Notes: generated from the letters alone by a model not told the origin. A stretch of DNA of 64,000 nt from Chloroflexota bacterium (GCA_021779955.1 JAJXZS010000036.1:1-64000), one strand, 5' to 3'. Shown: positions 31,287 through 57,425, counted from the stretch's first letter. Numbers and translations are program-made.

Positions 31287-31290
31287 GTGA

Positions 31291-35050: not shown

Positions 35051-36445
35051 ATGGCAGCAGCTGAAGTGAAAGCAGCACCTAAATCAGTTGTAGGTTATTT
35101 GCCGCAAGATGTACCACCATTTGGCGCAATGGTCTCCCTGGGTTTGCAGCAGGTTTTGACCATGTTCCCCGCGACCGTCCTCGTTGCGATCCTGACAAAA
35201 TTTGATGTCGGTGTCACCCTGATGGCATCAGGTATTGGCACGATCGTGGCTCTGTTCGTCTCCGGACGCCGCATCCCCATGTATTACGGCTCATCTTTCA
35301 GCTACATCTCCGTCATTATCACGGTCATGAGCCTGTACGCTAAAGACTGCTTCGCGAGCACCGCTGTGTACTGCCCTGAGGGTGTACGGCTGGTTCAGGT
35401 CGGCATCATGGGTACGGCAGTCATCGAAATCCTCATCGGCCTCTTGATCATGGCAGTCGGCAAGGAAGCGCTGGACAAGGTCCTGCCTCCTACCATCACC
35501 GGCTCTGTCGCCATCATCATCGGTATCGCCCTGGCCGGCACTGCACTCTCCGAAGCCAATTCCAACTGGGCAGTTGCATTCATCACCCTGGTGGTGACCA
35601 TTGGATTCTCCGTGTATCTGCAGGGTAAAGGCCTCATCGGCATGCTTCCCATTCTATTTGGCGCTATCGTCGGTTGGCTGGTCTCGCTGGCATTCCCCGG
35701 CTTGATCAACCTTGCCCCTGTTGCCTCTGCACAATGGCTGCGCCTCCCCGCTGTCACACTGCCCGCTTTCACCAGCGGCGAAGCCTGGGGCGCCATGCTC
35801 AGTATTGCACTGATCGCTATCGCAACCGTTCCAGAATCCACCGCTCACCTGTACCAGATGAGCCTGTACATCGACGCACTTGCCAAAGAAATCGGCCGCG
35901 CCCCCATCGAAATCAAGCGCCTCATCGGCCTCAACCTTGTTGCTGATGGTTCCGATGACCTGGTCGTTGGATTCCTCGGCGGATGCGCAGGAACCAACTA
36001 CGGCGAGAACAACAGCCTCATGGCCATCACCCGCAACTACTCTGTAGCTGTGTTGATGACCGCAGGCGTCATCGCCATCCTGTTGGGCTTCGTTGGCAAA
36101 CTGGCTGCAATAGTCAACACCTTGCCGACCGCAGTCGTAGGTGGCCTGTCCATCTACCTGTTCGGCGTCATCGGCATGCAAGGTGTTGCCCTCATCCAGA
36201 GCGAGAAGGTCAACTTGTTCGACCCGAAGCAGCTGGCAGTTGGCGCAACGATCCTTGTCCTGGGTATCGGTGGTGCGATGGGCCTGCCTAACGGCTTGTT
36301 CCCCTTCCCCATCCCCGTGATCTTCCCCAGCGGCATCCCCGCCATCGTCTTCGCTGCGTTCGCAGGCATCGTCCTCAATCTGCTGTTCCTGCTGCTCAAA
36401 CCCGAATGGTTCGGCATCAAGGAACGCGCGAACATCAACGACTAA
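35051..36445 (+). CDS. NCS2-family nucleobase (xanthine/uracil-type) permease
   Basis: A 464-aa permease of the nucleobase-cation symporter-2 family with about 12-14 helices. N-terminal FGAMVSLGLQQVLTMFPATV and the helix-10 region FLGGCAGTNYGENNSLMAITR, with the family motif GTNYGEN, are clear; VPESTAHLYQMSLYID is in the middle. NCS2 members import xanthine, urate or uracil by proton or sodium symport. It heads a co-directional catabolic region with a molybdenum hydroxylase, so a purine or pyrimidine base is the expected cargo. Confidence 0.92.
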   Translation: MAAAEVKAAPKSVVGYLPQDVPPFGAMVSLGLQQVLTMFPATVLVAILTKFDVGVTLMASGIGTIVALFVSGRRIPMYYGSSFSYISVIITVMSLYAKDCFASTAVYCPEGVRLVQVGIMGTAVIEILIGLLIMAVGKEALDKVLPPTITGSVAIIIGIALAGTALSEANSNWAVAFITLVVTIGFSVYLQGKGLIGMLPILFGAIVGWLVSLAFPGLINLAPVASAQWLRLPAVTLPAFTSGEAWGAMLSIALIAIATVPESTAHLYQMSLYIDALAKEIGRAPIEIKRLIGLNLVADGSDDLVVGFLGGCAGTNYGENNSLMAITRNYSVAVLMTAGVIAILLGFVGKLAAIVNTLPTAVVGGLSIYLFGVIGMQGVALIQSEKVNLFDPKQLAVGATILVLGIGGAMGLPNGLFPFPIPVIFPSGIPAIVFAAFAGIVLNLLFLLLKPEWFGIKERANIND

Positions 36446-36497
36446 TTCGCAAGATTGTTCAAATTCCCTCCCTCCGGTTGGGGGGAGGGACCATCTC

Positions 36498-36539
36498 GTA
36501 GCGTGTTTTCTGGGGAACTGACACTGGAAAACACGCTAC
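36498..36539 (+). other. Intergenic hairpin between permease and hydroxylase genes
   Basis: A perfect 13-bp stem GTAGCGTGTTTTC / GAAAACACGCTAC with a 16-nt loop, preceded by a second G/C-rich inverted repeat (CCCTCCC ... GGGAGGG, about 36466-36489). No T-run follows, so mRNA processing or stability is more likely than termination. Confidence 0.65.
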
Positions 36540-36561
36540 AACTAAAAAGACTGGAAACAAT

Positions 36562-37455
36562 ATGATCAATCCACATCCAGGACTCCCCGAACTCGAATAT
36601 TTGAAGCCTGCTTCGCTCGAAGAAGCCAGCAAATTCCTGGCCGACCATGCAGGCGAAGCCCGTCCGTTCTCTGGCGGAACGGATAGTCTCGTCCGCTTGC
36701 GCGACGGCGTGTGGAAGGTCAACACGCTGGTCGACGTGAAGCGACTGGACGGGACGCATGAACTCTCGTTCGACCCCAAGAAAGGGTTGACCATCGGCGC
36801 TGCTGTAACCATGAACAAGGTCGCCGCGCACCCGGACGTGCTCAAGCACTATCCGGTTCTGGCCGAAGCCGCCAAATCGGTTGCCAGCTATCAACTGCGC
36901 AATCGCGCCACCATTATCGGCAACATCTGCAATGCATCGCCTGCCGGAGACAGCATCGGCGCTTGCATGATCCTCGACGGCGTACTCAACGTTCACGGTG
37001 TGAACGGCTTTTACGCCATTCCTTTGAGCAACTTCTTCCTCGGACCCGGCAAGACTGTTTTGAAACCCGGCGACATCGTCGTCTCGATCACCCTCCCCGT
37101 TCCACCCAAGGGGTTTGCAGGCACTTACAAGAAACTCGGACGCAATACGATCGGCGATCTTTCCATCGTCGGCGTTGCGGTTCTGGGCTATCCAACCGGC
37201 GAGACCAAATCCGGCTACCGCTTCCGGATTGCCCTGGCCTCCGTTGCCCCAACCCCTTACGAATCACTCAAAGCTGAAGCTGTGCTCGCCGAAAAATCCA
37301 TCACCGCAGACACGATCGCTGAAGCAGCGCTGGCAGCCATGGATTCCGTCACACCCATCGACGATGTGCGCGGCTCAGCCCGCTATCGCAAATTCATGGT
37401 GCGCAATCTCACCCGTGAAGCGGTAACGGAAATTTGGAAGAAAATCAGCAAATAG
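36562..37455 (+). CDS. Molybdenum hydroxylase FAD-binding subunit (CoxM/XdhB type)
   Basis: A 297-aa FAD subunit. FAD-binding motifs: FSGGTDSLVRLRDG near residue 34, TIGAAVTMNKV near 77, and RNRATIIGNICNASPAGDS near 113, plus the C-terminal CO-dehydrogenase flavoprotein domain. It carries electrons from the Fe-S subunit to an acceptor. Gene order FAD, 2Fe-2S, Mo subunits matches three-subunit xanthine dehydrogenase-type hydroxylases. Confidence 0.93.
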   Translation: MINPHPGLPELEYLKPASLEEASKFLADHAGEARPFSGGTDSLVRLRDGVWKVNTLVDVKRLDGTHELSFDPKKGLTIGAAVTMNKVAAHPDVLKHYPVLAEAAKSVASYQLRNRATIIGNICNASPAGDSIGACMILDGVLNVHGVNGFYAIPLSNFFLGPGKTVLKPGDIVVSITLPVPPKGFAGTYKKLGRNTIGDLSIVGVAVLGYPTGETKSGYRFRIALASVAPTPYESLKAEAVLAEKSITADTIAEAALAAMDSVTPIDDVRGSARYRKFMVRNLTREAVTEIWKKISK

Positions 37456-37492
37456 CCTCAAGCAGGCTGTTTGATCTCTTTTCGGAGGTACT

Positions 37493-37957
37493 ATGGGCTT
37501 TCAAAGAATCACACTTACTGTTAACGACCTCGTCGAAACGGTAGATGTCCCAACCAATATGACTTTGCTCCAAATGCTGCGCGACAAACTCTCGCTGACA
37601 GGAACCAAGAACGGCTGCACTGCAGGCGAATGCGGCGCATGCACCGTGTTGATGAACGGCGAACCGGTCAACAGTTGCATGGTCCTTGCTGCCGAATGCG
37701 AAAGCGCTGTCATCACCACCGTCGAAGGTTTGGCAAAAGACGGCAAATTGAGCAAAGTTCAGCAGGCGATCATCAAGACCGGCGGCGTTCAGTGCGGTTT
37801 TTGCACACCCGGCATGTTGATCTCTGCCACAGCGCTGCTCGCGCGCAATCCCAACCCAACCGATCACGAGATTCGCGAGGCACTGGTTGGCAATCTCTGC
37901 CGCTGCACCGGTTACGTGCGTATCGTCGACGCTGTTAAAGAAGCAGCCAAGATGTGA
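37493..37957 (+). CDS. Molybdenum hydroxylase 2Fe-2S subunit
   Basis: A 154-aa subunit with both [2Fe-2S] sites: the plant-ferredoxin-type motif GCTAGECGACTVLMNG with a further Cys in PVNSC, and the helical domain motif CGFCTPGMLI plus NLCRCTGYVRIVDA. It passes electrons from the Mo centre to FAD. ATG 37493 follows TTCGGAGGTACT. Confidence 0.96.
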   Translation: MGFQRITLTVNDLVETVDVPTNMTLLQMLRDKLSLTGTKNGCTAGECGACTVLMNGEPVNSCMVLAAECESAVITTVEGLAKDGKLSKVQQAIIKTGGVQCGFCTPGMLISATALLARNPNPTDHEIREALVGNLCRCTGYVRIVDAVKEAAKM

Positions 37958-38010
37958 ACCGGGCTGGAGATTCAGATAAGGATAGCAGATATCCTCTAAG
38001 GAGCCGATCT

Positions 38011-40368
38011 ATGGCAAACGTTAAAAATAAAGAAAAGAGCACCAGCGTCATCGGCGCGAGCGTGCCGCGTAACGATGTTTACGAAAAAGTGACCGGTACG
38101 GCAATCTACACCGAAGACATTCAATTTGGCAACAAACTTCTTTATGCCCGCGTCAAGCGCAGCCCCTATCCCCACGCCCTGGTCAAGAAAGTCGACGTCA
38201 GCAAGGCGCGTGCGCTGCCCGGCGTGAAAGCAGTCATCGTTGGCGCAGACTTCCCCAACAAAATCGGGCTTTATCTCAAAGATAAGAACATCCTCGCCAC
38301 CGACCGCGTACGCTTCATCGGCGAACCGGTTGCTGCCGTGGCTGCCACAAGCAACGAGATCGCCATGAAAGCCCTCGAGTTGATCGATGTGGAATACGAG
38401 GAGCTCGAGCCGGTTTTCGATCCGGTTTACGGCGCATCGAAAGAAGCCCCGCTCATCCACCCCGATCTGGGCACCTACCAGTGGCCCAACTTCATTTTCC
38501 CGGAACCCGGAACCAACATTGCCAACCACTTCAAGATACGCAAGGGTAATCTTGAAGAAGGCTGGAAGAAATGCAAATATATCGTCGAACGCACCTACAA
38601 AATACCGCACATTCAGCACGTTCCCATCGAAACCCATGGCGCAACTGCCATGATGGACGAAAAGGGCAAGATCACCCTGTGGGCATCTTCGCAGTCTCCC
38701 TTCGCCCAACGTGCGCTGATCGCCGAATCGCTCAACATCTCTCCAACCGACCTGCGCGTCATTGCGCCGTTCGTCGGCGGCGGCTTCGGTTCGAAGGCGG
38801 GCGTCACCATGGAGGCCATCCCCGTCGCGCTTGCCACCAGATGCAAGGGCTGGCCGGTGCGCTTCACCCTTACCCGTGAGGAAGAGTTCTACACCAACTT
38901 CGTCCGCCAGGGCCTCGTCATTACGGTCAAGGTCGGCTGCGATGAAAAGGGCCGCCTTCTTTGCCTGAAGAATATGATGTACTTCGATGGCGGCGGTTCC
39001 ACCGAATACGGCGTCAATGTCACCCGCGCGGCCGGCTATTCAAGCTCTGGCCCGTATGACATCGAGAACGTTGAGACCGATTCCATCTGCGTCTACACCA
39101 ACCACCCCATCGGCGGCGCATACCGCGGATTCGGCATGTCCGAACTGCACACAGGCCTCGACCAGGCCATGGACGAGCTTGCCGAGAAGGTCGGGCTCGA
39201 CAAAGTGGAATTCTTGAAGATGAACACGGTCAAAGCCGGCGACAAGCTGGATACCGGCATGATTATGCATCCCACCGGCGTCAACCAGTGTATCGACAAT
39301 GTGGCCAAGTCTCTCAAGTGGCACCAGCCTGCCAAACCGTCCAGCCCCAACAAGCTGCGCGGACGCGGCATCGCCATCATGTGGAAGGCACCTGCCATGC
39401 CGCCAAACGCCGGGTCGAGCGCCTGGGTCGAACTGGCCGAGGACGGCCATGTCACCGTCGGCGTCGGCGGCCAGGAAATCGGCCAGGGTACTTTCACCGT
39501 CATGGCACAGATGGCCGCCGCAGCTCTTGGCGTGCCTTACGAAAACGTGCGCATCGCAGGCCCTGTGGATACCCAGTACAGCCCGTACGAGTGGCAAACC
39601 GTGGCTTCGCGCCTCACCTGGAGCATGGGCAATGCCGTGCGCAATGCCGCCATGGATGCGCGCAAGCAGATCCTGGACGTTGTCGCCCAGGCATGGCATG
39701 AGAATCCCGAAGACCTGGATATCGTCAACGGCGTGGTGGTCTCTTACAAGACCGAGCAGGAAACCTCGCTCAAAAACATCGCCATCTACGGCATGTCCAA
39801 AGAGAACGATCAGGGCTGGATCGGCGGACCCATCATCGGCCGCGGCAGCTTCATGCCCTCCTACGTCACAGGCCTGGATCCCGAGACCGGGCAGGGCACC
39901 CGCTCAGTTGTGCATTACACCACGGGCTGTGAAGGCCTGGATATCGAGATCGACAAGAACACCGGACAGATCACGGTGCTCAATGCCGCAGCATCGTTCG
40001 ACGTGGGGCACGCCATCAACCCTGTCCTGGTGAAGTCACAGATCGAAGGCGGTTTCGTCCAGGGGTTGAGCTCTGCCATGTTCGAAGAGATCAAGCTCAA
40101 GAAGGGCGTGATGACAAACCCCAGCTTCGTGGATTACCGCATCGCCACGGCAGCAGACGTCGAATTCCCCATCGAAACCCCGTTCGTCGAAGTACCGCAG
40201 GATGACGGCCCCTGGGGCGCCCGCGGGGTTGGCGAACATCCCATGGTTCCGACGATCGCAGCTCTCGGCAATGCCATCTACGCTGCCACAGGCTTGCGTC
40301 TGCCAGGCCCGCCTTACTCGGCGGAAAAGGTCTACCTTGCCATGCAAGACGCGGGCATCGTCAAGTAA
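38011..40368 (+). CDS. Molybdenum hydroxylase large (Mo-pterin) subunit
   Basis: A 785-aa subunit that hydroxylates the substrate with water-derived oxygen. VGGGFGSKAGV, GGAYRGFGMSELH and GGQEIGQGTFTVMAQM bind the Mo-pterin, and catalytic Glu742 lies in GVGEHPM. The AYRGFG loop matches xanthine-dehydrogenase-type enzymes and not CO dehydrogenase (AYRCSFR). Neighbouring permease and deaminase-like genes point to a nucleobase substrate such as hypoxanthine, xanthine or uracil. ATG 38011 is preceded by AAGGAGCCGATCT; an earlier in-frame start is unsupported. Confidence 0.93.
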   Translation: MANVKNKEKSTSVIGASVPRNDVYEKVTGTAIYTEDIQFGNKLLYARVKRSPYPHALVKKVDVSKARALPGVKAVIVGADFPNKIGLYLKDKNILATDRVRFIGEPVAAVAATSNEIAMKALELIDVEYEELEPVFDPVYGASKEAPLIHPDLGTYQWPNFIFPEPGTNIANHFKIRKGNLEEGWKKCKYIVERTYKIPHIQHVPIETHGATAMMDEKGKITLWASSQSPFAQRALIAESLNISPTDLRVIAPFVGGGFGSKAGVTMEAIPVALATRCKGWPVRFTLTREEEFYTNFVRQGLVITVKVGCDEKGRLLCLKNMMYFDGGGSTEYGVNVTRAAGYSSSGPYDIENVETDSICVYTNHPIGGAYRGFGMSELHTGLDQAMDELAEKVGLDKVEFLKMNTVKAGDKLDTGMIMHPTGVNQCIDNVAKSLKWHQPAKPSSPNKLRGRGIAIMWKAPAMPPNAGSSAWVELAEDGHVTVGVGGQEIGQGTFTVMAQMAAAALGVPYENVRIAGPVDTQYSPYEWQTVASRLTWSMGNAVRNAAMDARKQILDVVAQAWHENPEDLDIVNGVVVSYKTEQETSLKNIAIYGMSKENDQGWIGGPIIGRGSFMPSYVTGLDPETGQGTRSVVHYTTGCEGLDIEIDKNTGQITVLNAAASFDVGHAINPVLVKSQIEGGFVQGLSSAMFEEIKLKKGVMTNPSFVDYRIATAADVEFPIETPFVEVPQDDGPWGARGVGEHPMVPTIAALGNAIYAATGLRLPGPPYSAEKVYLAMQDAGIVK

Positions 40369-40371
40369 TTC

Positions 40372-40404
40372 AACGCCTGCTGGACTTTCCGTTCAGCAGG
40401 CGTT
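40372..40404 (+). terminator. Terminator-like hairpin after the hydroxylase genes
   Basis: Eleven-bp stem AACGCCTGCTG / CAGCAGGCGTT, 11-nt loop, then TTGTACC. The short U-tract suggests partial termination before the amidohydrolase gene 42 nt later. Confidence 0.7.
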
Positions 40405-40445
40405 TTGTACCACGAACAATCCTATTATCAAGATAGAGGTCAAAC

Positions 40446-41681
40446 ATGGCAGAAAAGTACGATTTGATCATCCGTAATGCTACGCTGCGCAGCAATGAGA
40501 AGGTGGATATCGCCGTTGCCGGCGGCAAGATCGCAGCCATCGCCCCCAGGATCGAAGCCAAAGCCGCCAGCGAAGTGGATGCTGCAGGAAACCTGGTTAC
40601 CGAATCCTTCGTCAACACCCATCTGCATCTGTGCAAAGTCTATACGTTGATGATGATGGACGAGGAAGCCCTCAAAGATTATCACGGCGCGGATATGGGC
40701 AAAGCCATGACCGCAATCGAAGCCGCGATGAAAGTCAAGGAAAAGTACGACGAGAAATGGATCATCAAGAACGTGCGCAAAGCCGCTGCCCTGGCCGGGC
40801 GATACGGCTGCACCCACATTCGCGCCTTTGCCGATGTCGATTCTAAAGCCAGGCTCGAAGGGGTGAAAGCGCTGCTCAAAGCCCGCGATGAATTCAAGGG
40901 CATTGTGGATATCCAGGTGGTAGCCTTCGCCCAAGACGGCCTGGCTCGCGAACCCGGCGCCGAGAAGCTGATGCGCGAGGCCATGAAACTGGGCTGCGAC
41001 GTTGTCGGCGGAATTCCGTGGATCGAATACACCGATGCTGATATTGCCGAACATGTGCGCATCTGCTTCCAAATTGCCAAAGAATTCGACAAGCCAGTCT
41101 CCATGCTCGTCGATGACGCCGGAGACAACGGCCTGCGCTCCATCGAAGTGATGGCGCTAGAAACCATCAAGACCGGCTGGCAGGGCCGCTCGCTGGCGCA
41201 TCACGCGCGCGCCATGTCGCTTTACCCCAAACCCTACCTGCAGAAACTAGCGCACCTGCTCAAACAGGCAGGCATGGGTCTGGTTTCTGACCCGCATACC
41301 GGACCGCTGCACGCGCGCGTGCGCGAACTGCAGGAAGAGAATGTGCTCGTTTGCCTCGGCCAGGACGATATTTCGGACGCTTACTACCCCTATGGCCGCA
41401 ACAACATGCTTGAGGTCGCCTTCCTCAATTCGCACCTGCTCTGGTACACCACCCGCGAAGACATGGAAACCCTCTACGACATGGTGACCAAGAATGCGGC
41501 GAAATGCATCGGCGTTGAAGACTATGGGCTCAAGGTCGGCGCAACGGCCAACCTTGTTGTGCTCGACCAACCGAATGTACTCGAAGCCCTGAGATTCCAT
41601 GAAGCGCCCAAGATCGTGGTGAGCCATGGCAAGGTCGTCGATCAACTGAAAATGGACCTGATCTACAAGGAAAACAGCTAA
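40446..41681 (+). CDS. CodA-like amidohydrolase (cytosine deaminase family) with altered metal site
   Basis: A 411-aa amidohydrolase. The overall pattern follows E. coli cytosine deaminase: first metal motif VNTHLHLCK (His59, His61), LAHHARAMS (His252) and CLGQDDISDAYYPYGRNNML (Asp307), the last strongly like CodA GHDDVFDPWYP. At the third metal position, where CodA has HCDE, this protein reads LVDD (Leu221-Asp224), so the usual His ligand and catalytic Glu are missing. It may use another metal geometry or a different nucleobase-like substrate. Placed between the Mo hydroxylase and the nucleoside importer. Confidence 0.82.
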   Translation: MAEKYDLIIRNATLRSNEKVDIAVAGGKIAAIAPRIEAKAASEVDAAGNLVTESFVNTHLHLCKVYTLMMMDEEALKDYHGADMGKAMTAIEAAMKVKEKYDEKWIIKNVRKAAALAGRYGCTHIRAFADVDSKARLEGVKALLKARDEFKGIVDIQVVAFAQDGLAREPGAEKLMREAMKLGCDVVGGIPWIEYTDADIAEHVRICFQIAKEFDKPVSMLVDDAGDNGLRSIEVMALETIKTGWQGRSLAHHARAMSLYPKPYLQKLAHLLKQAGMGLVSDPHTGPLHARVRELQEENVLVCLGQDDISDAYYPYGRNNMLEVAFLNSHLLWYTTREDMETLYDMVTKNAAKCIGVEDYGLKVGATANLVVLDQPNVLEALRFHEAPKIVVSHGKVVDQLKMDLIYKENS

Positions 41682-41808: not shown

Positions 41809-42085
41809 AGTTGAATTGGAATAGTGTTCCTTATTGGTTACAAGTAAATAATAATCTTGGTCGAACATTTCTCTTCGAATCGTTCAATCGTGATCCGTAA
41901 TTGCGGGCCACGTGTATATGGGTAGACATTTACAAACCGGCAGGATGACAACGAGAACATCTTCGCATATTGACCGGAGAATTTTCCGAGCAATAAAAAT
42001 TCATCTTCGAGGAGGAGAATATTCTGAATGATTTGTCGTGTTGTGCGTGTTCATCCAAACATTTCGATATTTTGGGAGGAGAATC
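41809..42085 (+). other. Long leader of the BMP-importer operon
   Basis: About 270 nt between promoter and ATG with no known riboswitch motif that I can recognise. It contains inverted segments around TTCGAATCGTTC (41875-41886) and CCGGAGAATTTTCCGAG (41973-41989). A short upstream reading frame closes it (see 42028). Confidence 0.45.
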
Positions 42086-42093
42086 ATGTCTAA
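42028..42093 (+). CDS. Possible 21-aa leader peptide overlapping the BMP-lipoprotein start
   Basis: ATG 42028 is preceded by GGAGGAGAATATTCTGA; the frame (MICRVVRVHPNISIFWEENH plus V) ends at TAA 42091-42093, just past the ATG of the lipoprotein gene at 42086 and in another frame. The arrangement would couple translation of the two. It could also be chance; no amino-acid-specific codon run is present. Confidence 0.35.
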   Translation: MICRVVRVHPNISIFWEENHV

Positions 42094-43096
42094 GAAACTT
42101 GTACCAGTATTGGTTGTACTGCTCATCGTTGCGTCCCTGATTGCAGGGTGCGCACAGAGCAACACCGGTGCCACCAGCGGCAAAATCAAAGTCTTTGGCG
42201 CTTACGCAACCCCAATCGAGGAACCCTGGGACGGCGTGATCCACCAGGCATTGAACGCAGCCAAGGAAGCAGGCACCATCGATTACACATATACCGAGAA
42301 TATTGGCTATTCCGGTGATATGGAACGCATATTGCGTGAAGTTGCCGATCAACAGAAACCGGACGTCATTATGGGAGATGCGTTTGGAAATGAAGAGGCA
42401 GTCCGCCGCGTTGCCAAAGACTATCCCAATATCGCGTTCGTTTTTGGCTCGGGCCTTGGCCCTGCTGATCCGAACTTCTCAGTGTTCGATAACTGGATCC
42501 AGGAACCCGCATATCTATCGGGCATGCTTGCCGCAGGAATGAGCAAGAGCGCCACTATCGGTGTGGTCGGCGGCTATCCTGTTCCCGAAGTCAACCGTCT
42601 GGTCAATGCCTTTATCGCAGGCGCCAAATCCGTCAATCCGAATACGAAGGTCCTGGTCTCCTTCATCAACAGTTGGTTCGATCCTGCTGCTGCGAAGGAA
42701 GCCGCCCTGGCTCAGATCGATGCCGGCGCTGACGTGCTCTATGCCGAGCGCTTTGGCGTTATCGATGCGGCCAAGGAAAAAGGCCTTCTGGCCATCGGCA
42801 ACATGAGCGATCAGAATTCGCTTGCGCCCGATACCGTGATCACCAGCCCGGTTTGGGACATGACCGCAACCGTTGCTTACGTGATTGCCCAGGTGAAAGC
42901 CGGTGCCTACACGTCCATGGACCTGAAGGACTTCAGCATGATGGCAAAGGGCGGCGCCACATTGGCCCCATTCCATAATCTTGAGTCCGCGATCCCTGCC
43001 GATCTTCTGGCTACAGTCACGCAGCGCCAGAATGACATCAAGAGCGGCCTGTTCCGCGTCGATGTCGACGAGGCTCAACCCCAGGCAGTGAACTAG
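42086..43096 (+). CDS. BMP-family (PnrA/Med-like) nucleoside-type binding lipoprotein
   Basis: A 336-aa lipoprotein: signal LIVASLIAGCAQ, then a BMP domain (KIKVFGAYATPIEEPWDGVI, PDVIMGDAFGNEEAVRRVAK, FGSGLGPADPNFSVFDNW, EPAYLSGMLAAGMSKSATIG). BMP proteins bind purine nucleosides (PnrA) or related ligands. The ATG follows GGGAGGAGAATC. It is the binding component of the ABC importer encoded downstream. Nucleoside or nucleobase is the likely cargo given the neighbours. Confidence 0.92.
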   Translation: MSKKLVPVLVVLLIVASLIAGCAQSNTGATSGKIKVFGAYATPIEEPWDGVIHQALNAAKEAGTIDYTYTENIGYSGDMERILREVADQQKPDVIMGDAFGNEEAVRRVAKDYPNIAFVFGSGLGPADPNFSVFDNWIQEPAYLSGMLAAGMSKSATIGVVGGYPVPEVNRLVNAFIAGAKSVNPNTKVLVSFINSWFDPAAAKEAALAQIDAGADVLYAERFGVIDAAKEKGLLAIGNMSDQNSLAPDTVITSPVWDMTATVAYVIAQVKAGAYTSMDLKDFSMMAKGGATLAPFHNLESAIPADLLATVTQRQNDIKSGLFRVDVDEAQPQAVN

Positions 43097-43105
43097 TTTT
43101 TGTAC

Positions 43106-43141
43106 GCAGGGCGGCGAGCGGCAAAACGTTTGCCGCCCTGC
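43106..43141 (+). terminator. Hairpin between BMP lipoprotein and ATPase genes
   Basis: Ten-bp stem GCAGGGCGGC / GCCGCCCTGC with an alternative inner stem GCGGCAAA / TTTGCCGC, followed by TTTAAGG. It could reduce read-through into the ATPase and permease genes or stabilise the upstream message. Confidence 0.7.
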
Positions 43142-43155
43142 TTTAAGGATGGACT

Positions 43156-44640: not shown

Positions 44641-44667
44641 GGCTGGGGGACGAAAGGAGGTCAAACC

Positions 44668-48408: not shown

Positions 48409-48422
48409 TGTGAGGGTAAACC

Positions 48423-49213: not shown

Positions 49214-49231
49214 CCGCGAAAGGATTTAGCC

Positions 49232-50377: not shown

Positions 50378-50411
50378 GACATCACCAACTTTTGAAAGGA
50401 GGAATGTTCAA

Positions 50412-51962
50412 TTGACAGTCAAATCGCTTATCAAAGCCAGTGAATATCACGACTCGGTCAGCTTGATGCTGGTTGCCAAGGAATTGGTCAAGTTCCCCGG
50501 CGTCAAAGATGCCTCCGTTATGATGGGAACCGATGCCAACAAATCGCTGCTCGAACAGAGCGGACTGCTGACCCCCGAAGGTAAAGCTGCCACACCGAAC
50601 GACCTGATCATCGCGGTCAGCACCGATGCTGATGTCGACGCTGCCCTGGCTCATGCAGAATCCCTGCTCAACAAGAAAGCTGAAGCTGAAGAAGGGATCG
50701 AATTCCGTCCCAAGACCGTTCGCAGCGCCAGGAGGGCACATCCCAATGCCAACGTGGCGATCATCTCCATTGCGGGACGCTACGCTGCCGAAGAAGCCTG
50801 GGAGTGCCTCTTCCAGGGCATGCACGTGCTGCTCTTCTCGGATAACGTGAGCAAGGAAGACGAACTCGCCCTGAAGAAGTACGGCCGCGACCATGGCCTG
50901 CTGGTGATGGGTCCGGGCGCTGGCACCGCGATCCTCAATGGCGTCGCGCTTGCCTTCGCCAACGTCATCCCGGCCGGCCCGGTGGGTATCGTTTCTGCTG
51001 CAGGCACCGGCCTGCAGGAGACAAGCACTCTGCTCGCCAAGAACGGAGTGGGCATCACCCAGGGTATCGGCACCGGCGGCGGCGACGTCAAGAAGGAAAT
51101 CGGCGGCATCATGTACATCGAAGGCCTGAAAGCTTTACAGGCCGACCCCGCCACCAAAGTCATTCTGATGGTCAGCAAGCTTCCCGATCTCGAGGTCGAA
51201 CAAACCCTGCTCGAGCAGGTCAAAGCCAGCCAGAAACCCACAGTCATCTGCCTGCTGGGCGGCAAAGCCCGAAGCGCTCAACTCCCCGAGAACGCAATCG
51301 TGGTCAGCACGCTCGAAGAAGCAGGGCTCACCGCGGCAAAATTGGCGGGCGCAAAGATCGGCGACATCAAAGCCGCCATCGCTGCTGAAGCCGAAGAAAC
51401 CAGGAAGCAGGCGATTGAGCTCAAGAAGCTGCTCAAGCCCGGCCAGAAGCACTTGCGCGGTCTCTTCTCAGGCGGAACCCTGTGCTACGAATCGCAGGTC
51501 ATCTGGCGCGACAACTTCGAGATGGAAGTCTACTCAAACGCTCCCCTCGACAAGCACTTCAAGATGAAAGACTCCACGCGCAGCGAAGGCGATTGCGTGA
51601 TCGACCTGGGTGAAGAAGAATTCACCGTTGGCCGTCCGCACCCCATGATCGACAACGATCTGCGCGTCCGCAGGATCTTGCAGGAAGCTGCCGACCCGTC
51701 TGTTGCAGTGATCATGCTCGACGTGGTCATCGGTTACGGCGCGCACCCCGACCCCGCTGCTGAACTTGGCGACGCCATCCTCAAAGCCCGCGCAGCTGCC
51801 AAGAAAGACGGCCGTGAAGTGCTCTTCGTCGCATCCGTCACAGGCACTGAAGAAGACCCGCAGTGCCTCAGCCGCACCACCGATATGCTCCAGGCTGCCG
51901 GCGTGCATGTGCTCAAAGACAACGCGATGGCTTCACGTCTCGCAGGGTACCTCATTTCCTGA
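50412..51962 (+). CDS. fdrA: FdrA-family protein (carbamoyltransferase-type subunit)
   Basis: A 516-aa FdrA protein, related to succinyl-CoA synthetase alpha/beta domains. Features: N-terminal domain with SLMLVAKELVKFPGVKDASV, a CoA-ligase-like Rossmann part (GPGAGTAILNGVALAFANV, GPVGIVSAAGTGLQETSTLL) and the C-terminal HPMIDNDLRVRRILQEAADP. In E. coli, FdrA with YlbE and YlbF forms a three-subunit oxamate carbamoyltransferase; the DUF1116 and DUF2877 genes here complete that set. The start is TTG 50412 after GAAAGGAGG. Confidence 0.88.
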   Translation: MTVKSLIKASEYHDSVSLMLVAKELVKFPGVKDASVMMGTDANKSLLEQSGLLTPEGKAATPNDLIIAVSTDADVDAALAHAESLLNKKAEAEEGIEFRPKTVRSARRAHPNANVAIISIAGRYAAEEAWECLFQGMHVLLFSDNVSKEDELALKKYGRDHGLLVMGPGAGTAILNGVALAFANVIPAGPVGIVSAAGTGLQETSTLLAKNGVGITQGIGTGGGDVKKEIGGIMYIEGLKALQADPATKVILMVSKLPDLEVEQTLLEQVKASQKPTVICLLGGKARSAQLPENAIVVSTLEEAGLTAAKLAGAKIGDIKAAIAAEAEETRKQAIELKKLLKPGQKHLRGLFSGGTLCYESQVIWRDNFEMEVYSNAPLDKHFKMKDSTRSEGDCVIDLGEEEFTVGRPHPMIDNDLRVRRILQEAADPSVAVIMLDVVIGYGAHPDPAAELGDAILKARAAAKKDGREVLFVASVTGTEEDPQCLSRTTDMLQAAGVHVLKDNAMASRLAGYLIS

Positions 51963-51980
51963 AAGGAGAGGAGCGCAAAA

Positions 51981-53387
51981 ATGGCAGAAAGAAAAATCCA
52001 AGATCTATTCGGAAAACCCGTGGAGGTTGTCAATGTTGGCCTTCAGGGGTTCATCCAACCCATGAAAGACCAGGGCGTCCCCGTTGTGGACGTCGACTGG
52101 CGCCCTCCCAAGGAAGGGATCCGCCACCTTCGGGTCACCAGGAACGGAAAGTCCATCGACGAAGCCAACGATGAGGTCGTCAGCCGCATCAAGAAAGCCC
52201 GCCCCGTGCTGGTTGGCATGGGCCTGGCCATCGACACCATCCCCGGCTACAAACCCAACCTGATCCTGCACGCTGGCCCCCCGATCACCTGGGAGCGCAT
52301 GTGCGGACCCACGAAGGGTGCGGTGATGGGCGCTCTCATCTACGAGGGCCTGGCCAAAGACGAGAAGGAAGCCGCGGCTCTGGCTGCATCAGGCAAGATC
52401 GAATTTGCTCCGTGCCACCACTACCACGCTGTCGGACCCATGGCAGGTGTTGTGTCTGCGCACATGCCCGTCTTCATCATCGAGAACAAGGCTTTCGGCA
52501 ACAAGGCATATGCCACCATGAACGAAGGGTTGGGCAAGGTCCTCCGCTTCGGCGGCATGGGACCCGATGTCTACGCCCGGCTGCACTGGATGACAGACGT
52601 CCTCTATCCCTCCCTTAAGCGCGCGCTGGCAACCCTGCCAGACGGCATCGATATCAAATCATTGATCGCCCAGGCGCTACACATGGGTGACGAGTGCCAC
52701 AACCGCAACCGCGCTGGAACTTCGTTGTTCCTCCGCGCGATCGCACCAGCCCTCGCCCGCACCAGCACCGACAACGAAACCCTTGCCAAAGTGATCGAGT
52801 TCATCGACAAGAACGATCACTTCTTCCTCAATCTCTCGATGCCCGCAGGAAAAGCGGCCCTCGAGCCCGCGGAGGGCGTCGAAGGCAGCTCAGTGATGAC
52901 CATCATGGCCCGCAACGGCACAGATTTCGGCATCCAGATCAGCTCGATGCCCGGCAAGTGGTTCACGGCCCCGGCTCCCATGGTGGAAGGCCTCTACTTC
53001 CCCGGTTTCAGCGAAAAGGATGCCAACCCCGATATCGGCGATAGCACGGTTTGTGAGACCGCCGGTTACGGCGGCGTTGCCATGGCTGCAGCCCCTGCCA
53101 TCGTCAAGTTCGTTGGCGGCACCCCGCAAATGGCCATCGACAGCACGCTCGAGGCGTACGAGATCACCTACAGCGAGCATGAAGGCTTTACCATCCCGGT
53201 TCTGAACTTCCGCGGCACGCCGCTTGGTTTCGATGTCCGCAAGGTTATGGAGACCGGAATCATGCCCAAAATCAACACCGGAATCGCCCACAAGGATCCA
53301 GGAGTGGGCGGCATTGGCGCAGGAATCCTGCGCGCTCCTGAAAAGGTTTTCAAGGACGCGTTTGATGAATTCAGCAAATTCTGCTAG
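51981..53387 (+). CDS. DUF1116 (YlbE-like) protein
   Basis: A 468-aa DUF1116 protein. Conserved stretches include HAGPPITWERMCGPTKGAVM, CHHYHAVGPMAGVVS, MGDECHNRNRAGTSLFLRAI and NGTDFGIQISSMPGKWFTAP. The His, Cys, Asn and Arg residues in these blocks suggest a catalytic role; E. coli YlbE is the second subunit of the oxamate carbamoyltransferase. It follows fdrA by 18 nt with ribosome site GAAAGGAGAGGAG. Confidence 0.9.
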   Translation: MAERKIQDLFGKPVEVVNVGLQGFIQPMKDQGVPVVDVDWRPPKEGIRHLRVTRNGKSIDEANDEVVSRIKKARPVLVGMGLAIDTIPGYKPNLILHAGPPITWERMCGPTKGAVMGALIYEGLAKDEKEAAALAASGKIEFAPCHHYHAVGPMAGVVSAHMPVFIIENKAFGNKAYATMNEGLGKVLRFGGMGPDVYARLHWMTDVLYPSLKRALATLPDGIDIKSLIAQALHMGDECHNRNRAGTSLFLRAIAPALARTSTDNETLAKVIEFIDKNDHFFLNLSMPAGKAALEPAEGVEGSSVMTIMARNGTDFGIQISSMPGKWFTAPAPMVEGLYFPGFSEKDANPDIGDSTVCETAGYGGVAMAAAPAIVKFVGGTPQMAIDSTLEAYEITYSEHEGFTIPVLNFRGTPLGFDVRKVMETGIMPKINTGIAHKDPGVGGIGAGILRAPEKVFKDAFDEFSKFC

Positions 53388-53412
53388 TCAACTCAGTTAA
53401 GGAGAATAAAGT

Positions 53413-54294
53413 ATGAAACTCATCGATTTGACTCTGCCTTTAGGAATTGCAACGCCCGCGTGGCCCACCTACGAACCTCTGCAGGTGAAATACTTCAAAC
53501 GCCTGGCACCCAACGGCGCAAATGGACAACTCCTCACCCACTCCAACCACCTCGGTACGCACCTTGATGGCGAGTGCCACTTCTGGACCGCCGGTAAAGA
53601 TATCGCGTCCCTCACGATGGACTACCTGGTCAATGAAGCCGCGGTAGTCGATTTGAGCGACGTTGCCGGTGACTATGATGTGTACACCTCAAAGATGGTT
53701 ACAGACCGCGTCGAAGTCAAGCACGGCGATATCCTCATCATCCATACCGGTTACCACCACTTCGGATGGGATATGCCGGAAGCCGACGAAGTCCGCTACA
53801 TGGTTCAGCATCCGGGTCCTGATGTCGAATTTGCCAAGTGGGCTCAGAAACTCGAGCTGCGCTGGATCGGTGTCGATTGCGGTTCTGCTGACCACCCCAT
53901 GAACACCATCATTCGCAACTGGATGCCCCGCCAGGCGAAACAGGCCGAGAAAGTATTCCAGAAGAAATTCCACAAATCGCTGGAAGAATTCTACACAGAC
54001 GAAAAGTACCAGTTCATGCACCTCGATATGTTCCCGCATCACATTCTGCATGCTGAATGCCTTGGCGGCGATCTCGACTTGCTGCTCAACCGCCGCGTCA
54101 AGATCGGTTTCTTCCCCTGGCGCTTCGTCGATGGTGAATCCTCCATCGGACGCTGCGTGGCCTTCGTCGAAGATGATGAATATGAGAAGCTGATGGCAAA
54201 GAAAGCCACCATGCCCAAGTCGAAATTCGGTGACTGCTACGAACCCAAGCATATCGAATCACTCAACAAGTTGACTAAAGCCAACCTGGCTTAG
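53413..54294 (+). CDS. Cyclase-family metal-dependent amide hydrolase
   Basis: A 293-aa member of the cyclase/kynurenine-formamidase/isatin-hydrolase family. The metal motif SNHLGTHLDGECHFW follows the family pattern HxGTHxDxPxHF, with Glu-Cys in place of the usual Pro. LGTHLDGECHF and GDILIIHTGYHHFGW complete the core. Relatives open cyclic or acyl amides, so opening of a nucleobase-derived ring or ureide is plausible. The protein is longer than typical (about 210-260 aa) with an extra C-terminal part from about 190. Confidence 0.85.
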   Translation: MKLIDLTLPLGIATPAWPTYEPLQVKYFKRLAPNGANGQLLTHSNHLGTHLDGECHFWTAGKDIASLTMDYLVNEAAVVDLSDVAGDYDVYTSKMVTDRVEVKHGDILIIHTGYHHFGWDMPEADEVRYMVQHPGPDVEFAKWAQKLELRWIGVDCGSADHPMNTIIRNWMPRQAKQAEKVFQKKFHKSLEEFYTDEKYQFMHLDMFPHHILHAECLGGDLDLLLNRRVKIGFFPWRFVDGESSIGRCVAFVEDDEYEKLMAKKATMPKSKFGDCYEPKHIESLNKLTKANLA

Positions 54295-54323
54295 TAGACC
54301 CATATTATTAAAAGGAGTTTGCC

Positions 54324-55049
54324 GTGAAATTCGAATTGCCTGAAAAAGCATCTGTAGAGACCCTGGAAATCGACGCTCGCGAAGTCGAAGCCATGCTCCA
54401 GGGCCCCAAAATGGATCTCAAACCCTGGCCCGGTGCCCAGGTCAAATTGAAGGACGGACGCATCCTCTTCATCCGCGAAGCTCGTCTCGACGAAGCCCCC
54501 AAGATGCTCACCTACATGGAAAAGATCATGCACGTCGATCACGACTTCTATGATATCGTGGGCGCCCGCGTCTATTCCGAGATCCTCGGCTGGTATCGCT
54601 CGCGCCTCAAGGACCCCTATACCCTCGTCGGTTTGATCGACGGCAAATGGGCAGGCTTCGCCAACGGCCGCCTGATGAACGAGGATATCAACATTTCCCT
54701 CCACACCATGGCCCTCCTGCGCGGCGGACGTATTGGCGCAGTGATGTATTACGCCAAAGCCTACTACGGTTTCGAAATCCTTGGCAACAAGGAATGGTGG
54801 GCGACCTACGAAAGCTACAACGGCTGGATGCGCTGGGGTCTCGGCATGGCTCAACCTTCCTACCCATGGCCCGATGTCCAACACGAACTCGGCGGCGCCA
54901 AGGTCTACTATGTCACCAAGAAGTACTGGGATCAGTTGATCAAACAGTACGTGCGCCAGATGGCCGGCGCCGATCTCGACTTCAACGTGTCTGATGAAGT
55001 TCGCAAAGCCAACGAAGAACTCATCGTCCCCGACGAAATCCTGGTCTAA
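54324..55049 (+). CDS. Uncharacterised protein, possibly GNAT-like
   Basis: A 241-aa cytoplasmic protein. Residues 45-150 resemble a GNAT acetyltransferase layout: a beta strand ILFIREARLDEAPKM, then YTLVGLIDGKWAGFANGRL and the loop LLRGGRIGAVMYYAKAYYGF. It is aromatic-rich in the middle (EWWATYESYNGWMRWGLGM). This similarity is weak. It is the last gene of the operon with FdrA, DUF1116 and the cyclase, so it likely takes part in the same pathway. Confidence 0.5.
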   Translation: MKFELPEKASVETLEIDAREVEAMLQGPKMDLKPWPGAQVKLKDGRILFIREARLDEAPKMLTYMEKIMHVDHDFYDIVGARVYSEILGWYRSRLKDPYTLVGLIDGKWAGFANGRLMNEDINISLHTMALLRGGRIGAVMYYAKAYYGFEILGNKEWWATYESYNGWMRWGLGMAQPSYPWPDVQHELGGAKVYYVTKKYWDQLIKQYVRQMAGADLDFNVSDEVRKANEELIVPDEILV

Positions 55050-55065: not shown

Positions 55066-55097
55066 ACTCCCGAGATTTCAAAACAAATCTCGGGAGT
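55066..55097 (+). terminator. Intrinsic terminator of the catabolic operon
   Basis: Perfect 13-bp stem ACTCCCGAGATTT / AAATCTCGGGAGT, 6-nt loop, then CTGCTTTTTA. It lies 17 nt after the last gene. Confidence 0.93.
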
Positions 55098-55352: not shown

Positions 55353-55380
55353 TTGACAACCCTCTCATTCGATTTATACT
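55353..55380 (+). promoter_or_regulatory. Promoter of the membrane protein/HTH pair
   Basis: TTGACA (55353-55358), 16-bp spacer and TATACT (55375-55380), 54 nt before the ATG at 55434. Confidence 0.65.
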
Positions 55381-55433
55381 ATAAATAGATTTGCAGTGCA
55401 AACTATTATTCAAATCAGTGGGAGGTGGATGCC

Positions 55434-56060
55434 ATGCAAAATCTAGATAAGACGCGCTTTATCGCCGCGAATTATTCGAACTTGCAGGGTCTCAAGGGCG
55501 TGCCGATGGGGCTGCTGCTGATCACGGTTGTGCTTTGGGCCAACCAGCTACACGGGCGGGCTACCGATCTGTCGCTTCCGATCCTATTCGGGGTTGTAAC
55601 GATTGTGGTGACTTTCCTGATCTACCGTTATTACAAGTCCCATTTTGGAAAGGTCGAGAGCACCCCGAAACAGAAGCGGGTGGTATTTCTCCTCTCTATT
55701 GTCGGGGCGTTGGTGGCATTAGGCGCGTTTCTGGGCGATAATTATCTGCACCTTCCGCTTAGCCTGGTTGGATTGGTGTTCGCAGCGACAGTGGTGACGG
55801 AATACCTGCGTATGCAGTGGATCGCACCGGGACACTACCTACTGCCCGCGATGCTGGCTTGTTTCGTCATCATCCTATTGGTGAGCATTTTGCCGCTACT
55901 GGGAGCAGGGGATTGGTGGAAACTGCTTGGACTGCGCGAGCAGATGTTCGGGGTACTGGTGGTAGTCGGCGCGGTGATTGTGGCATACGGCCTGTTCGGG
56001 CACTGGTACTTCGTCCACCAACTGCCGCTTGTGACTCCTGAAGCAAAAGGCGAGGAATAA
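55434..56060 (+). CDS. Uncharacterised six-helix membrane protein
   Basis: A 208-aa protein with about six hydrophobic segments (MGLLLITVVLWANQL; LPILFGVVTIVVTFLIY; VVFLLSIVGALVALGAFLG; LPLSLVGLVFAATVV; LLPAMLACFVIILLVSIL; MFGVLVVVGAVIVAYGLFG). No family recognised. The ATG at 55434 follows GGGAGGTGGATGCC. It is 3 nt from an HTH regulator gene, a pairing common for small self-regulated membrane modules. Confidence 0.65.
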   Translation: MQNLDKTRFIAANYSNLQGLKGVPMGLLLITVVLWANQLHGRATDLSLPILFGVVTIVVTFLIYRYYKSHFGKVESTPKQKRVVFLLSIVGALVALGAFLGDNYLHLPLSLVGLVFAATVVTEYLRMQWIAPGHYLLPAMLACFVIILLVSILPLLGAGDWWKLLGLREQMFGVLVVVGAVIVAYGLFGHWYFVHQLPLVTPEAKGEE

Positions 56061-56063
56061 CCT

Positions 56064-56390
56064 ATGGGCAGCGTATTCGAAGAAATGGCCGGGTTGGACC
56101 GATTGATCCACGAGCCCTCGCGGCTGGCGATTCTGACGGCGCTTTCCACCTGCCAGCGCGCCGATTTCGTTTTCCTGCAGCGTATCACCGGTTTGACGGG
56201 GGGGAACTTATCCAGCCAAATCTCGAAACTGGCAGATGCCGGGTTGGTGAGCGTGGAGAAGAAGATCATCGCCAAACGCTCCAACACTCTTGTGCAAATC
56301 ACGCCACGGGGCCAGGAGGCAATCGAGCAGCACTGGCAGCAACTCGAGCAGCTGCGCAAAAGCGCACAGGAGTGGAAGCCGAAATCCTAA
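56064..56390 (+). CDS. Winged-helix regulator (HTH_27, MarR/ArsR-like)
   Basis: A 108-aa DNA-binding protein: LDRLIHEPSRLAILTALSTC, recognition helix GGNLSSQISKLADAGLVSVE, wing NTLVQITPRGQEA. This pattern matches the one-domain winged-helix regulators (HTH_27) often paired with small membrane proteins. Likely regulates its own operon; no operator identified. Confidence 0.85.
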   Translation: MGSVFEEMAGLDRLIHEPSRLAILTALSTCQRADFVFLQRITGLTGGNLSSQISKLADAGLVSVEKKIIAKRSNTLVQITPRGQEAIEQHWQQLEQLRKSAQEWKPKS

Positions 56391-56540
56391 CAGAAAGCTT
56401 CAGACTTAAACGCGATTGGCCCGTTTTCTGGCATTCTACTCACCTATTTTGGCGTGACTATAGTTATTTAAGAAGAATCCCGAAATCTTCAAACACAGAT
56501 TACGGGATGCGAATTCGAGGATAAGAATTGGCGCGACGGT

Positions 56541-57425
56541 TCAGGCAGGCAGAAGCGCGGCAGCCATCCCCGCAAAAGCATCGATGCCTGAAGAGTTGCC
56601 GAAGGATTCCAGCTTTCGCGCAATGGTGACCGGATCCATCTTGCAGGTATTGAGCAGCACCATCGCCGCCATGCCGACCCGCTCGTCCACCAGGCGCTGG
56701 ATCGCGGCTTCGATCAGGTTCGCCGAAATCCAGGTCGTCTGTTTACGCGCCAGCTCAAGCGCTAACGCGTTGAGTTGGCTGGTGAATTCATCCACGGCTC
56801 CCTCGCGGTTGAGCAGGCAGTTCAAGATCAGCAGGTAACCGGCCGTGATATCGTCACCGGACGGCGTCAATCCCATGCCGTTGCCCAAAATTAGCTTGAG
56901 GGCGTCTTCACAGGCAGCCAGATCCTTCGCACGCGTCCCCTGGCGCAGATTGCGCACCGCAACCCACAACTCCTGCTTCGCAGGGTCCACCGGAACCCTC
57001 TTGTTGAACAGCGCATCGACAACGAACAGGCAAGAGTCCTCGTGCCCGCCCCGGTCAAGCAATTGAAAGATCGAAACGATCTGCGAGACGATCGTCCCTT
57101 TCATAGCGTGTGCTTTCACCTGGGGCAGGGGCTCAGGCGCGATTTCGGTCAGCGAGGATAAATCCAAATCCCATTCGCCCATGCGCAGATGATTATCCGC
57201 CAGGCTCGCGCGTGTATTCAACGCCAAACCCCCGGGGTACTCCTCAGGATCGTCTATCTGTATGCTGAACGGATTATCGATACTGTTCCCGGTCAGGAAC
57301 ACAACTCGATCTCCGAAGAGGACGAAGATCCCCTTCGAGGTAATCCCAATCACTTTTCCATCAACGTTGGATCGCAATAACGGGGCGATGAAGCTCCCGG
57401 CTTTATGAATCTTTACAGGCATCAT
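56541..57425 (-). CDS. DUF2877 protein (YlbF-like, third carbamoyltransferase subunit)
   Basis: A 294-aa DUF2877 protein, recognised by ILGNGMGLTPSGDDITAGYL near residue 178, the family signature, with IAPEPLPQVKAHAMKGTIV upstream. In E. coli YlbF it is the third subunit of the FdrA/YlbE/YlbF oxamate carbamoyltransferase. The gene is on the opposite strand, about 1.5 kb from the fdrA-DUF1116 operon, so expression is uncoupled. It overlaps the upstream peptidase gene by 4 nt. Confidence 0.87.
   Translation of the reverse strand: MMPVKIHKAGSFIAPLLRSNVDGKVIGITSKGIFVLFGDRVVFLTGNSIDNPFSIQIDDPEEYPGGLALNTRASLADNHLRMGEWDLDLSSLTEIAPEPLPQVKAHAMKGTIVSQIVSIFQLLDRGGHEDSCLFVVDALFNKRVPVDPAKQELWVAVRNLRQGTRAKDLAACEDALKLILGNGMGLTPSGDDITAGYLLILNCLLNREGAVDEFTSQLNALALELARKQTTWISANLIEAAIQRLVDERVGMAAMVLLNTCKMDPVTIARKLESFGNSSGIDAFAGMAAALLPA

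Follow-up and report, generated by a model that had tools for sequence, protein, structure and literature searches.

Gene content of the island

We analysed a stretch of 64,000 nucleotides from a Chloroflexota bacterium (GCA_021779955.1 JAJXZS010000036.1:1-64000), referred to here as the window, and in it a gene island at positions 35051-57425 that an original prediction, made from the DNA sequence, had described as a nucleobase catabolic island. The window covers contig C40 (64,218 bases) except for 218 bases, in a genome of 2.83 Mb, and the closest named relatives of this genome are Anaerolineaceae (Chloroflexota), which are common in digesters and sediments and whose diets are poorly known. 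The genes that the prediction named were found on the plus strand with AllH (DUF2877) nearby; all are open and free of internal stops at the coordinates in Table 1, and library models recognised every one except that at 54324-55049. The spacing of the plus-strand genes divides the island into three units. The first (35051-41681) encodes a permease, the flavin adenine dinucleotide (FAD), 2Fe-2S and molybdenum (Mo) subunits of a Mo hydroxylase, and an amidohydrolase, and the second (42038-46634) a BMP-family ATP-binding cassette (ABC) importer. The third (46837-55049), whose genes overlap or lie no more than 34 bp apart, is one tight operon for a decarboxylase pump, AllF (FdrA), AllG (DUF1116), a cyclase-family hydrolase and a GNAT-fold protein. 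AllH lies 1.5 kb beyond it.

The permease was 34.1% identical to Escherichia coli UraA and 24.5% to XanQ. Its PESTAH and YGEN motifs aligned with AEHVGH and YGEN of UraA, where XanQ differs, and the Glu, His and YGEN residues that we take to serve the substrate site of UraA were kept, unlike in XanQ. It scored below the curated uracil-permease cut-offs (PRK10720, 209 of 477; TIGR00801, 211.8 of 291.8). The molybdopterin subunit of the hydroxylase was below every listed equivalog cut-off, and its scores against the XdhA models were 495.2 of 780 (NF043082), 470.8 of 916 (NF007426) and 405.8 of 783.65 (TIGR03196). In its GGGFGSKA motif, Ala stands at what is presumably the place of the purine-binding Glu of xanthine dehydrogenases, after GGGFGxK, and the Arg of RGFG, located by the same presumed numbering, is kept. 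Among 21 relatives with at least 45% identity, the first motif could be read in 19, always with Ala, and RGFG was found in 17. About five homologues of this subunit are encoded in the genome. A xanthine route was rejected for the island on these hydroxylase scores, the replaced Glu and a permease that is not XanQ-like.

The best relatives of the amidohydrolase with solved structures were AtzC and then CodA. With CodA ligands numbered as we take them to be (His61, His63, His214 and Asp313), the third metal His (His214) is replaced by Leu both in the window and in the 6 orthologues covering this position (11 aligned), and the other three are kept in the window. This residue speaks against the original label of a CodA-like enzyme in the sense of a plain cytosine deaminase, a candidate function ruled out also by subfamily scores (NF005748, 270.5 of 438; NF006685, 217.3 of 483). 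The clade would appear to have either a different metal site or a different chemistry.

AllF, AllG and AllH were 42%, 46% and 29% identical to their E. coli counterparts and above their family cut-offs, and AllG was the only match in the genome. The prediction had found no allantoinase, allantoicase or carbamate kinase. Within the window, E. coli carbamate kinase, AllC, AllD and AllE gave no tblastn match at an expectation value (E) of 1e-5; the genome does, however, encode a carbamate kinase on another contig (G000:C19:5441-6364; TIGR00746 385.9 bits, cut-off 358.25). AllFGH is thus not in one operon with the kinase, unlike the E. coli arrangement.

The cyclase has the motif HLGTHLD at residues 46-52, of which His46, Gly48, Thr49, His50 and Asp52 were invariant in 22 sequences. 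Its predicted model, in which residues 11-50, part of the metal motif included, are of low confidence, resembles isatin hydrolase and kynurenine formamidase (13-17% identity where the structures match). Both of these enzymes hydrolyse amides, and isatin hydrolase opens a ring. The protein encoded at 54324-55049, listed in the prediction as unknown, had no Pfam or NCBIfam match, and a sequence search against the PDB gave chance-level matches only. An AlphaFold model built from 9 relatives (mean predicted local distance difference test score 78.9) nevertheless showed the strand and helix order of GNAT, with a best Foldseek match in the PDB at E 9e-6 and 50 matches at E of 0.001 or below, several of them with coenzyme A (CoA) bound. 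The canonical CoA pyrophosphate loop of GNAT proteins is (R/Q)xxGx(G/A). The loop reads RGGRIG here, with Arg133, Arg136 and Gly138 invariant in 9 sequences; its fourth residue is Arg, not Gly, and the loop is not canonical. This protein is probably an enzyme that uses CoA.

The pump is a predicted biotin-dependent decarboxylase whose alpha subunit, the sole match in the genome, scored 740.5 against TIGR01117 (mmdA), below the cut-off of 998.8. OadB carries a DGPT motif, whose role in OadB proteins we assume, and the candidate gamma gene scores below the cut-offs of both its models, just under in the case of PF04277 (Table 1), and fits by position and size. We infer that Na+ is the coupling ion. 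In the nearest locus elsewhere (L062; loci and regions are given L numbers and genomes G numbers), the GNAT protein was about 96-97% identical to that of the window, AllG 91% and the cyclase 90%, and OadB only 54%. The OadB of L062 was 84% identical to that of L066, whereas the OadB of the window was 87% identical to that of L063. When the window was compared with L062 (pump at 1773-5276), no DNA similarity was reported over 48177-50394, with clear similarity on either side. The pump was therefore replaced in place, two divergent lineages filling the same slot (46837-50377), which suggests that a pump is functionally required at this place.

Table 1. Features of the island with positions in the window and the basis of each assignment.
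Feature	Positions	Strand	Basis
NCS2 permease, UraA-like (uracil type)	35051-36445	+	PF00860 179.5 bits (cut-off 27)
Mo hydroxylase, FAD subunit	36562-37455	+	PF00941, PF03450
Mo hydroxylase, 2Fe-2S subunit	37493-37957	+	PF01799, PF00111
Mo hydroxylase, molybdopterin subunit	37954-40368	+	PF02738, PF20256, PF01315; GGGFGSKA motif
CodA/AtzC-like amidohydrolase without third metal His	40446-41681	+	PF07969; solved-structure relatives; alignment
BMP-family binding protein, ABC importer	42038-43096	+	PF02608
ABC importer ATPase (double)	43156-44640	+	PF00005 twice
ABC importer permease 1	44668-45741	+	PF02653
ABC importer permease 2	45723-46634	+	PF02653
Carboxyltransferase alpha of Na+ decarboxylase, acyl-CoA type	46837-48408	+	PF01039 620 bits
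OadG-like gamma subunit	48423-48773	+	PF04277 26.5 (cut-off 27); TIGR01195 28.3 (cut-off 36.05)
Biotin carrier	48710-49213	+	PF00364 58.7 (cut-off 22.1); EAMKAM biotin motif
OadB, predicted Na+-pumping membrane subunit	49232-50377	+	PF03977 442 bits; TIGR01109 388.8 (cut-off 190.6)
AllF (FdrA)	50412-51962	+	NF004760 488.3 (cut-off 433)
AllG (DUF1116)	51981-53387	+	PF06545 329 bits (cut-off 27)
Cyclase-family metal-dependent hydrolase, candidate ring opener	53413-54294	+	PF04199 100.6 (cut-off 23.1)
GNAT-fold protein, conserved partner of the cyclase	54324-55049	+	AlphaFold model and Foldseek; no Pfam or NCBIfam match
Membrane protein, 211 amino acids, membership doubtful	55425-56060	+	Hydrophobic sequence; no Pfam or NCBIfam family; between GNAT and AllH
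AllH (DUF2877)	56541-57425	-	PF11392 66.7 bits (cut-off 25)

Two proteins probably start later than listed, the molybdopterin subunit at Met 38011 (many orthologues have 777-790 amino acids) and the biotin carrier at Met 48770, where its gene forms an ATGA overlap with the gamma gene. A gene for a Peptidase_C39-like protein (57422-58273, minus strand) overlaps AllH by 4 bases, and this pair is repeated in L062, L064, L066, L070, L073, L074 and L091 for no evident reason connected with a transcarbamylase. On its other side the island adjoins a minus-strand ABC importer with a phosphonate-type binding protein (29907-33184).

Conserved linkage of the island families

Scanning 84,980 species genomes for the GNAT protein yielded 257 relatives. 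The 80 best were retained as loci, and partner genes were counted in them by tblastn with the proteins of the window. As some loci share a contig (L105/L113 and L099/L114, for example), these are not 80 independent genomes. The cyclase was present in 67 loci, in 53 of them directly upstream of the GNAT gene; a Mo hydroxylase subunit was found in 35, AllH in 32, AllG in 29, AllF in 26, a complete pump in 24, the amidohydrolase in 12, the BMP protein in 11 and the NCS2 permease in 9. In the 46 loci whose flanks extend 5 kb or more in either direction, the cyclase was present in 40, the Mo hydroxylase in 26, AllG in 18 and the pump in 16. Of the 24 complete pumps, 20 have OadB immediately before the cyclase, as do 21 of the 25 loci with OadB; L073 is not counted as complete because its alpha gene is cut off. 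In two of the other four, L062 and L087, OadB precedes AllF, and in L093 the amidohydrolase and AllFG stand between OadB and the cyclase. The loci belong to Anaerolineae and, at greater distance, to records titled Thermotogaceae, Acidimicrobiaceae, Elusimicrobia and others. One of them (L080), with the cyclase, GNAT and AllH, is from the cultivated Bellilinea caldifistulae GOMI-1. The more distant GNAT relatives that were scanned have unrelated neighbours (L131, L137, L139 and L141) or a nucleoside-phosphorylase-type gene nearby (L117).

We also examined 74 further regions, 70 of them with AllG, which cover 66 of the 70 AllG genomes besides that of the window (G068, G161, G174 and G217 are left out); some repeat GNAT loci (L040 and L126, for example). 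Both the cyclase and the Mo hydroxylase occur in 28 of the 70 AllG regions, neither in 36 and one alone in 6, and NCS2 permeases are found in 9. Clusters of one form have kinase, AllG, AllF and AllH adjoining a hydroxylase-cyclase set (L156, L158 and L163). In another (L053, L057 and L182), the genes are for a permease, an XdhC-type maturation protein, the hydroxylase, an amidase, AllF, AllG, the cyclase, AllH and a synthetase. The families of the island, which the prediction had taken to belong together, thus do travel together across the 80 GNAT loci and the 70 AllG regions, and form a conserved unit, not a chance row.

At the level of whole genomes, AllG was found in 71 of 400 Chloroflexota genomes, that of the window included, and the GNAT protein in 7 of the 400, all 7 with AllG. 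Seven genomes of this sample and those of 43 of the 80 loci, chosen by us and mostly with cyclase and GNAT, gave a set of 50 cluster genomes. AllG was present in 48 of them; the other two (G414 and G419) are assemblies of 1.8 and 2.3 Mb whose completeness is not stated. Loci with only hydroxylase, pump, cyclase and GNAT are therefore generally in genomes with AllG elsewhere, as L041 is with L040. Carbamate kinase passed its cut-off in 44 of these 50 genomes and lies within 17 of the 70 AllG regions. In the phylum sample, counted at E of 1e-90 or below, it occurs in 53 of 71 genomes with AllG compared with 62 of 329 without (Fisher 4e-19, uncorrected for descent). Within the family of the window this link is weak, because all 10 sampled genomes carry the kinase, with or without AllG.

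In L109 and L112 (Acidimicrobiaceae), the GNAT gene, AllFG and the Mo hydroxylase occur with a dihydropyrimidinase-like gene (40-42%) and the cyclase was not detected, as if the two were interchangeable as ring openers. One genome holds two different hydroxylase-cyclase-GNAT sets, one with AllF-AllG (L040) and one with the pump (L041). One hydroxylase and cyclase type might serve thymine and the other uracil.

These two sets also bear on another possibility, that more than one ring may be used and that the island is a ureide pathway for a less common N-heterocycle (a vitamin B6, flavin or modified-base product), taken up by the BMP importer and converted to an acyl-urea that AllFGH cleaves. 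The top NCBIfam models of the importer are named 'putative B6 transporter', with scores far under their cut-offs (ATPase 476 of 670; permease 207 of 465), and the closest solved relative of the amidohydrolase, AtzC, is a triazine enzyme. BMP importers transport nucleosides too, however, the BMP protein occurs in only 11 of the 80 loci, and NCS2 permeases recur in 9 loci and 9 AllG regions. We consider this explanation quite unlikely.

The three units could also be separate neighbours: one set for oxidising a nucleobase, one importer, and one methylmalonyl-CoA decarboxylase that belongs to general propionate metabolism and stands before AllFG by chance. Units one and two and the pump operon are set apart by gaps of about 356 and 202 bp, and an alpha subunit without a second match in the genome could serve general metabolism. 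Against this, the pump shares its tight operon with AllF, AllG, the cyclase and the GNAT gene, it stands beside the cyclase in many loci of otherwise differing gene content, and pumps of two divergent types are found in this one slot. A chance association of this kind seems very improbable to us.

Proposed route of pyrimidine breakdown

We propose that the island serves to degrade a pyrimidine (uracil, thymine or both) oxidatively under anaerobic conditions, coupled to energy conservation, a reading in which we place about as much confidence as doubt. Its parts differ in strength. One ureide-forming pathway of ring degradation that ends in a CoA ester and the pump appears quite probable, and that the ring is a pyrimidine could go either way; we infer every substrate, reaction and reaction direction, and the GNAT step, from the genes. 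A base or nucleoside would enter through the permease or the BMP importer, and the Mo hydroxylase would oxidise ring C6 with water, giving barbiturate or 5-methylbarbiturate and two electrons. Hydrolysis of one ring amide by the cyclase would produce ureidomalonate or ureidomethylmalonate, which would share an acyl-urea group with oxalurate. AllF, AllG and AllH would move the carbamoyl group to phosphate, forming carbamoyl phosphate and (methyl)malonamate, and the carbamate kinase encoded elsewhere would make ATP from the former. For the transcarbamylase chemistry, E. coli AllFGH is a tested precedent (PMC11326118). What is left, either the amide acid or the ureido acid, would be converted to malonyl-CoA or methylmalonyl-CoA, a step in which the GNAT protein probably takes part. 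The membrane decarboxylase would release CO2, export Na+ and leave acetyl-CoA or propionyl-CoA. Because carboxyltransferases of this family act on CoA thioesters, a CoA ester must be formed before the pump acts. The order of hydroxylase, cyclase, AllFGH and decarboxylase was already part of the original prediction and agrees with the gene neighbourhood, whereas the GNAT step and the need for a CoA thioester had been omitted.

Of the two routes that the prediction had offered, from a pyrimidine to a malonate-like acid or from a purine to oxamate, we favour the first because of the UraA-type permease, the lost purine-binding Glu and the malonyl-CoA-synthase-like and dihydropyrimidinase-like neighbours within some sister clusters. 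Against the malonyl-CoA synthase model (cut-off 558), the acyl-CoA synthetases of L057 and L053 reached 554.4 and 553.9 bits (2 genomes scanned), and a gene of this type was found in 3 of the 70 AllG regions. A dihydropyrimidinase adjoins AllH in L055 (577 bits, cut-off 393). Dihydropyrimidinase-like genes were found in 7 of the 70 regions, 4 at 50% identity or more to a query that itself came from one of those 4 and 3 at 23-32%. A search of the 50 cluster genomes, that of the window included, for the barbiturase/cyanuric acid hydrolase family (PF09663) gave no match, nor did control genomes, which makes this a weak negative.

The same dihydropyrimidinase/hydantoinase-like genes would also suit a purine-derived or hydantoin-type ring that leads to oxalurate, which AllFGH would split into oxamate and carbamoyl phosphate, as it is known to do, while the pump would serve something else. 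We regard this as unlikely. The permease is of the UraA type, the molybdopterin subunit has Ala where the purine-binding Glu is presumed to be, and an acyl-CoA pump standing before the cyclase in 20 of 24 cases would, from what is known of its family, have no use for oxamate or oxalate. In its favour are the 42% and 46% identities of AllF and AllG to the E. coli proteins, and the tested action of E. coli AllFGH, whose function was assigned in 2024, on oxalurate (PMC11326118).

For the proposed pyrimidine route, the GNAT protein is the likeliest CoA-type enzyme of the island besides the pump and AllF. We compared amidase/nitrilase-type genes in GNAT loci with AllG and in AllG-cyclase regions without GNAT, the two sets being kept apart since some regions repeat GNAT loci. 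Such genes occurred in 0 of 29 of the former and in 12 of 26 of the latter (0 of 17 and 12 of 25 when both flanks reach 3 kb or more); two of the 12 matches are weak (L050, 80 bits; L155, 60 bits), and 10 of 26 remain when they are set aside. A malonyl-CoA-synthase-like gene is present, moreover, in some of the sister clusters that lack GNAT. This lack of co-occurrence suggests that the GNAT protein may stand in for the amidase and the synthetase. It might, more specifically, be a new enzyme that transfers the acyl group of (methyl)malonamate or ureido(methyl)malonate to CoA with release of ammonia or urea, replacing amidase and malonyl-CoA synthetase and feeding the Na+ pump; in this detailed form the idea is speculative, and we hold it to be rather unlikely. 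A GNAT protein that releases urea as a full replacement of AllFGH was ruled out by the presence of AllG in 48 of the 50 cluster genomes.

A number of observations weigh against the pyrimidine route. AllH is on the strand opposite to AllF and AllG, and oxalurate is a possible substrate for the AllFG step. AllG and the pump are in one locus in only 3 of the 80 (L062, L087 and L093) besides the window, a complete pump was found in none of the 70 other AllG regions (2 have a weak alpha match alone), and all 24 complete pumps are from Chloroflexota records. Sixteen of the 80 loci have the cyclase alone among the counted partners and 9 have none of them (one of these has AllF and another AllH); the cyclase-GNAT pair may have a wider role, often without AllFG or the pump nearby. 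In L090, the fourth exception among complete pumps, GNAT-like similarity of about twice the usual length (9176-10714), perhaps two GNAT genes in tandem, directly follows OadB and the cyclase was not detected. A thiolase and a 118-amino-acid protein, not the pump, follow the GNAT gene in three genomes (L045; L046, 4413-7627; L048, 7008-10192), although this again points to a CoA ester. The island yielded no CoA ligase and the window no match resembling malonyl-CoA synthase, the synthase scores of the sister clusters are just below the cut-off, and in L057 an exonuclease gene separates the synthetase from AllH. The counts are uncorrected for common descent and are taken as description, not as independent trials. 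We are aware of no activity among the cyclases and GNAT proteins of these groups.

Each family of the island is known; we did not find the combination described in the literature searched, which lacks most subscription journals. The GNAT step could be new in itself. If the proposal is true, genes would be named for the whole oxidative pyrimidine route in anaerobes, a cyclase subfamily would gain a ring-opening role and the AllFGH transcarbamylase a second substrate, and base breakdown would be tied to a sodium pump in organisms living from RNA and DNA bases. It would also give a first functional setting to a GNAT family whose member in the window fits no Pfam or NCBIfam model. Should the reading of the GNAT step hold as well, a fermentation living on pyrimidine bases would gain both ATP and a sodium gradient out of a single ring.

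Comparison with known systems

The island resembles the E. coli allFGH-allK genes in its AllF, AllG and AllH homologues and in the carbamate kinase of its genome. It differs in its Mo hydroxylase, cyclase, GNAT protein and Na+ pump, in the opposite strand of AllH and in having no similarity to AllC, AllD or AllE; in the 74 other regions, AllC was matched only in L151 and L153 and AllD only in L193, at 28-35% identity. Comammox and archaeal nitrifier metagenome-assembled genomes carry allFGHK, with bmpA-nupABC importers near related genes, and the portion of that report available reads allFGHK as serving oxalurate use beside triuret and biuret genes and mentions neither a pump nor a cyclase set (PMC12625717).

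The E. coli xdhA-xdhD/ygeW/hyuA/yqeA region follows a similar logic, with Mo hydroxylases, a hydantoinase-type hydrolase, a putative carbamoyltransferase and amino acid kinase, and nucleobase permeases. It differs in using HyuA for ring opening, YgeW for carbamoyl transfer and XanQ, GhxQ and UacT as permeases, and the stretch examined has no decarboxylase pump. Isatin hydrolase and kynurenine formamidase appear from the predicted model to share their fold with the island cyclase, together with the metal motif HxGTHxD.

The oxidative pyrimidine pathway of Rhodococcus and Nocardia consists of uracil dehydrogenase, barbiturase and ureidomalonase, and its intermediates barbiturate and ureidomalonate are those that we also propose for the island. 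Barbiturase in those bacteria belongs to the AtzD/TrzD family, whereas we propose a cyclase-family hydrolase and AllFGH for the island, under anaerobic conditions. With the Na+ methylmalonyl-CoA and malonate decarboxylases, the island shares the alpha carboxyltransferase, biotin carrier and OadB subunits, along with a candidate OadG-like subunit. Its alpha subunit is under the mmdA cut-off, and whereas the known decarboxylases are partners of succinate or malonate use, the operon partner of this pump would be a ring-opening pathway.

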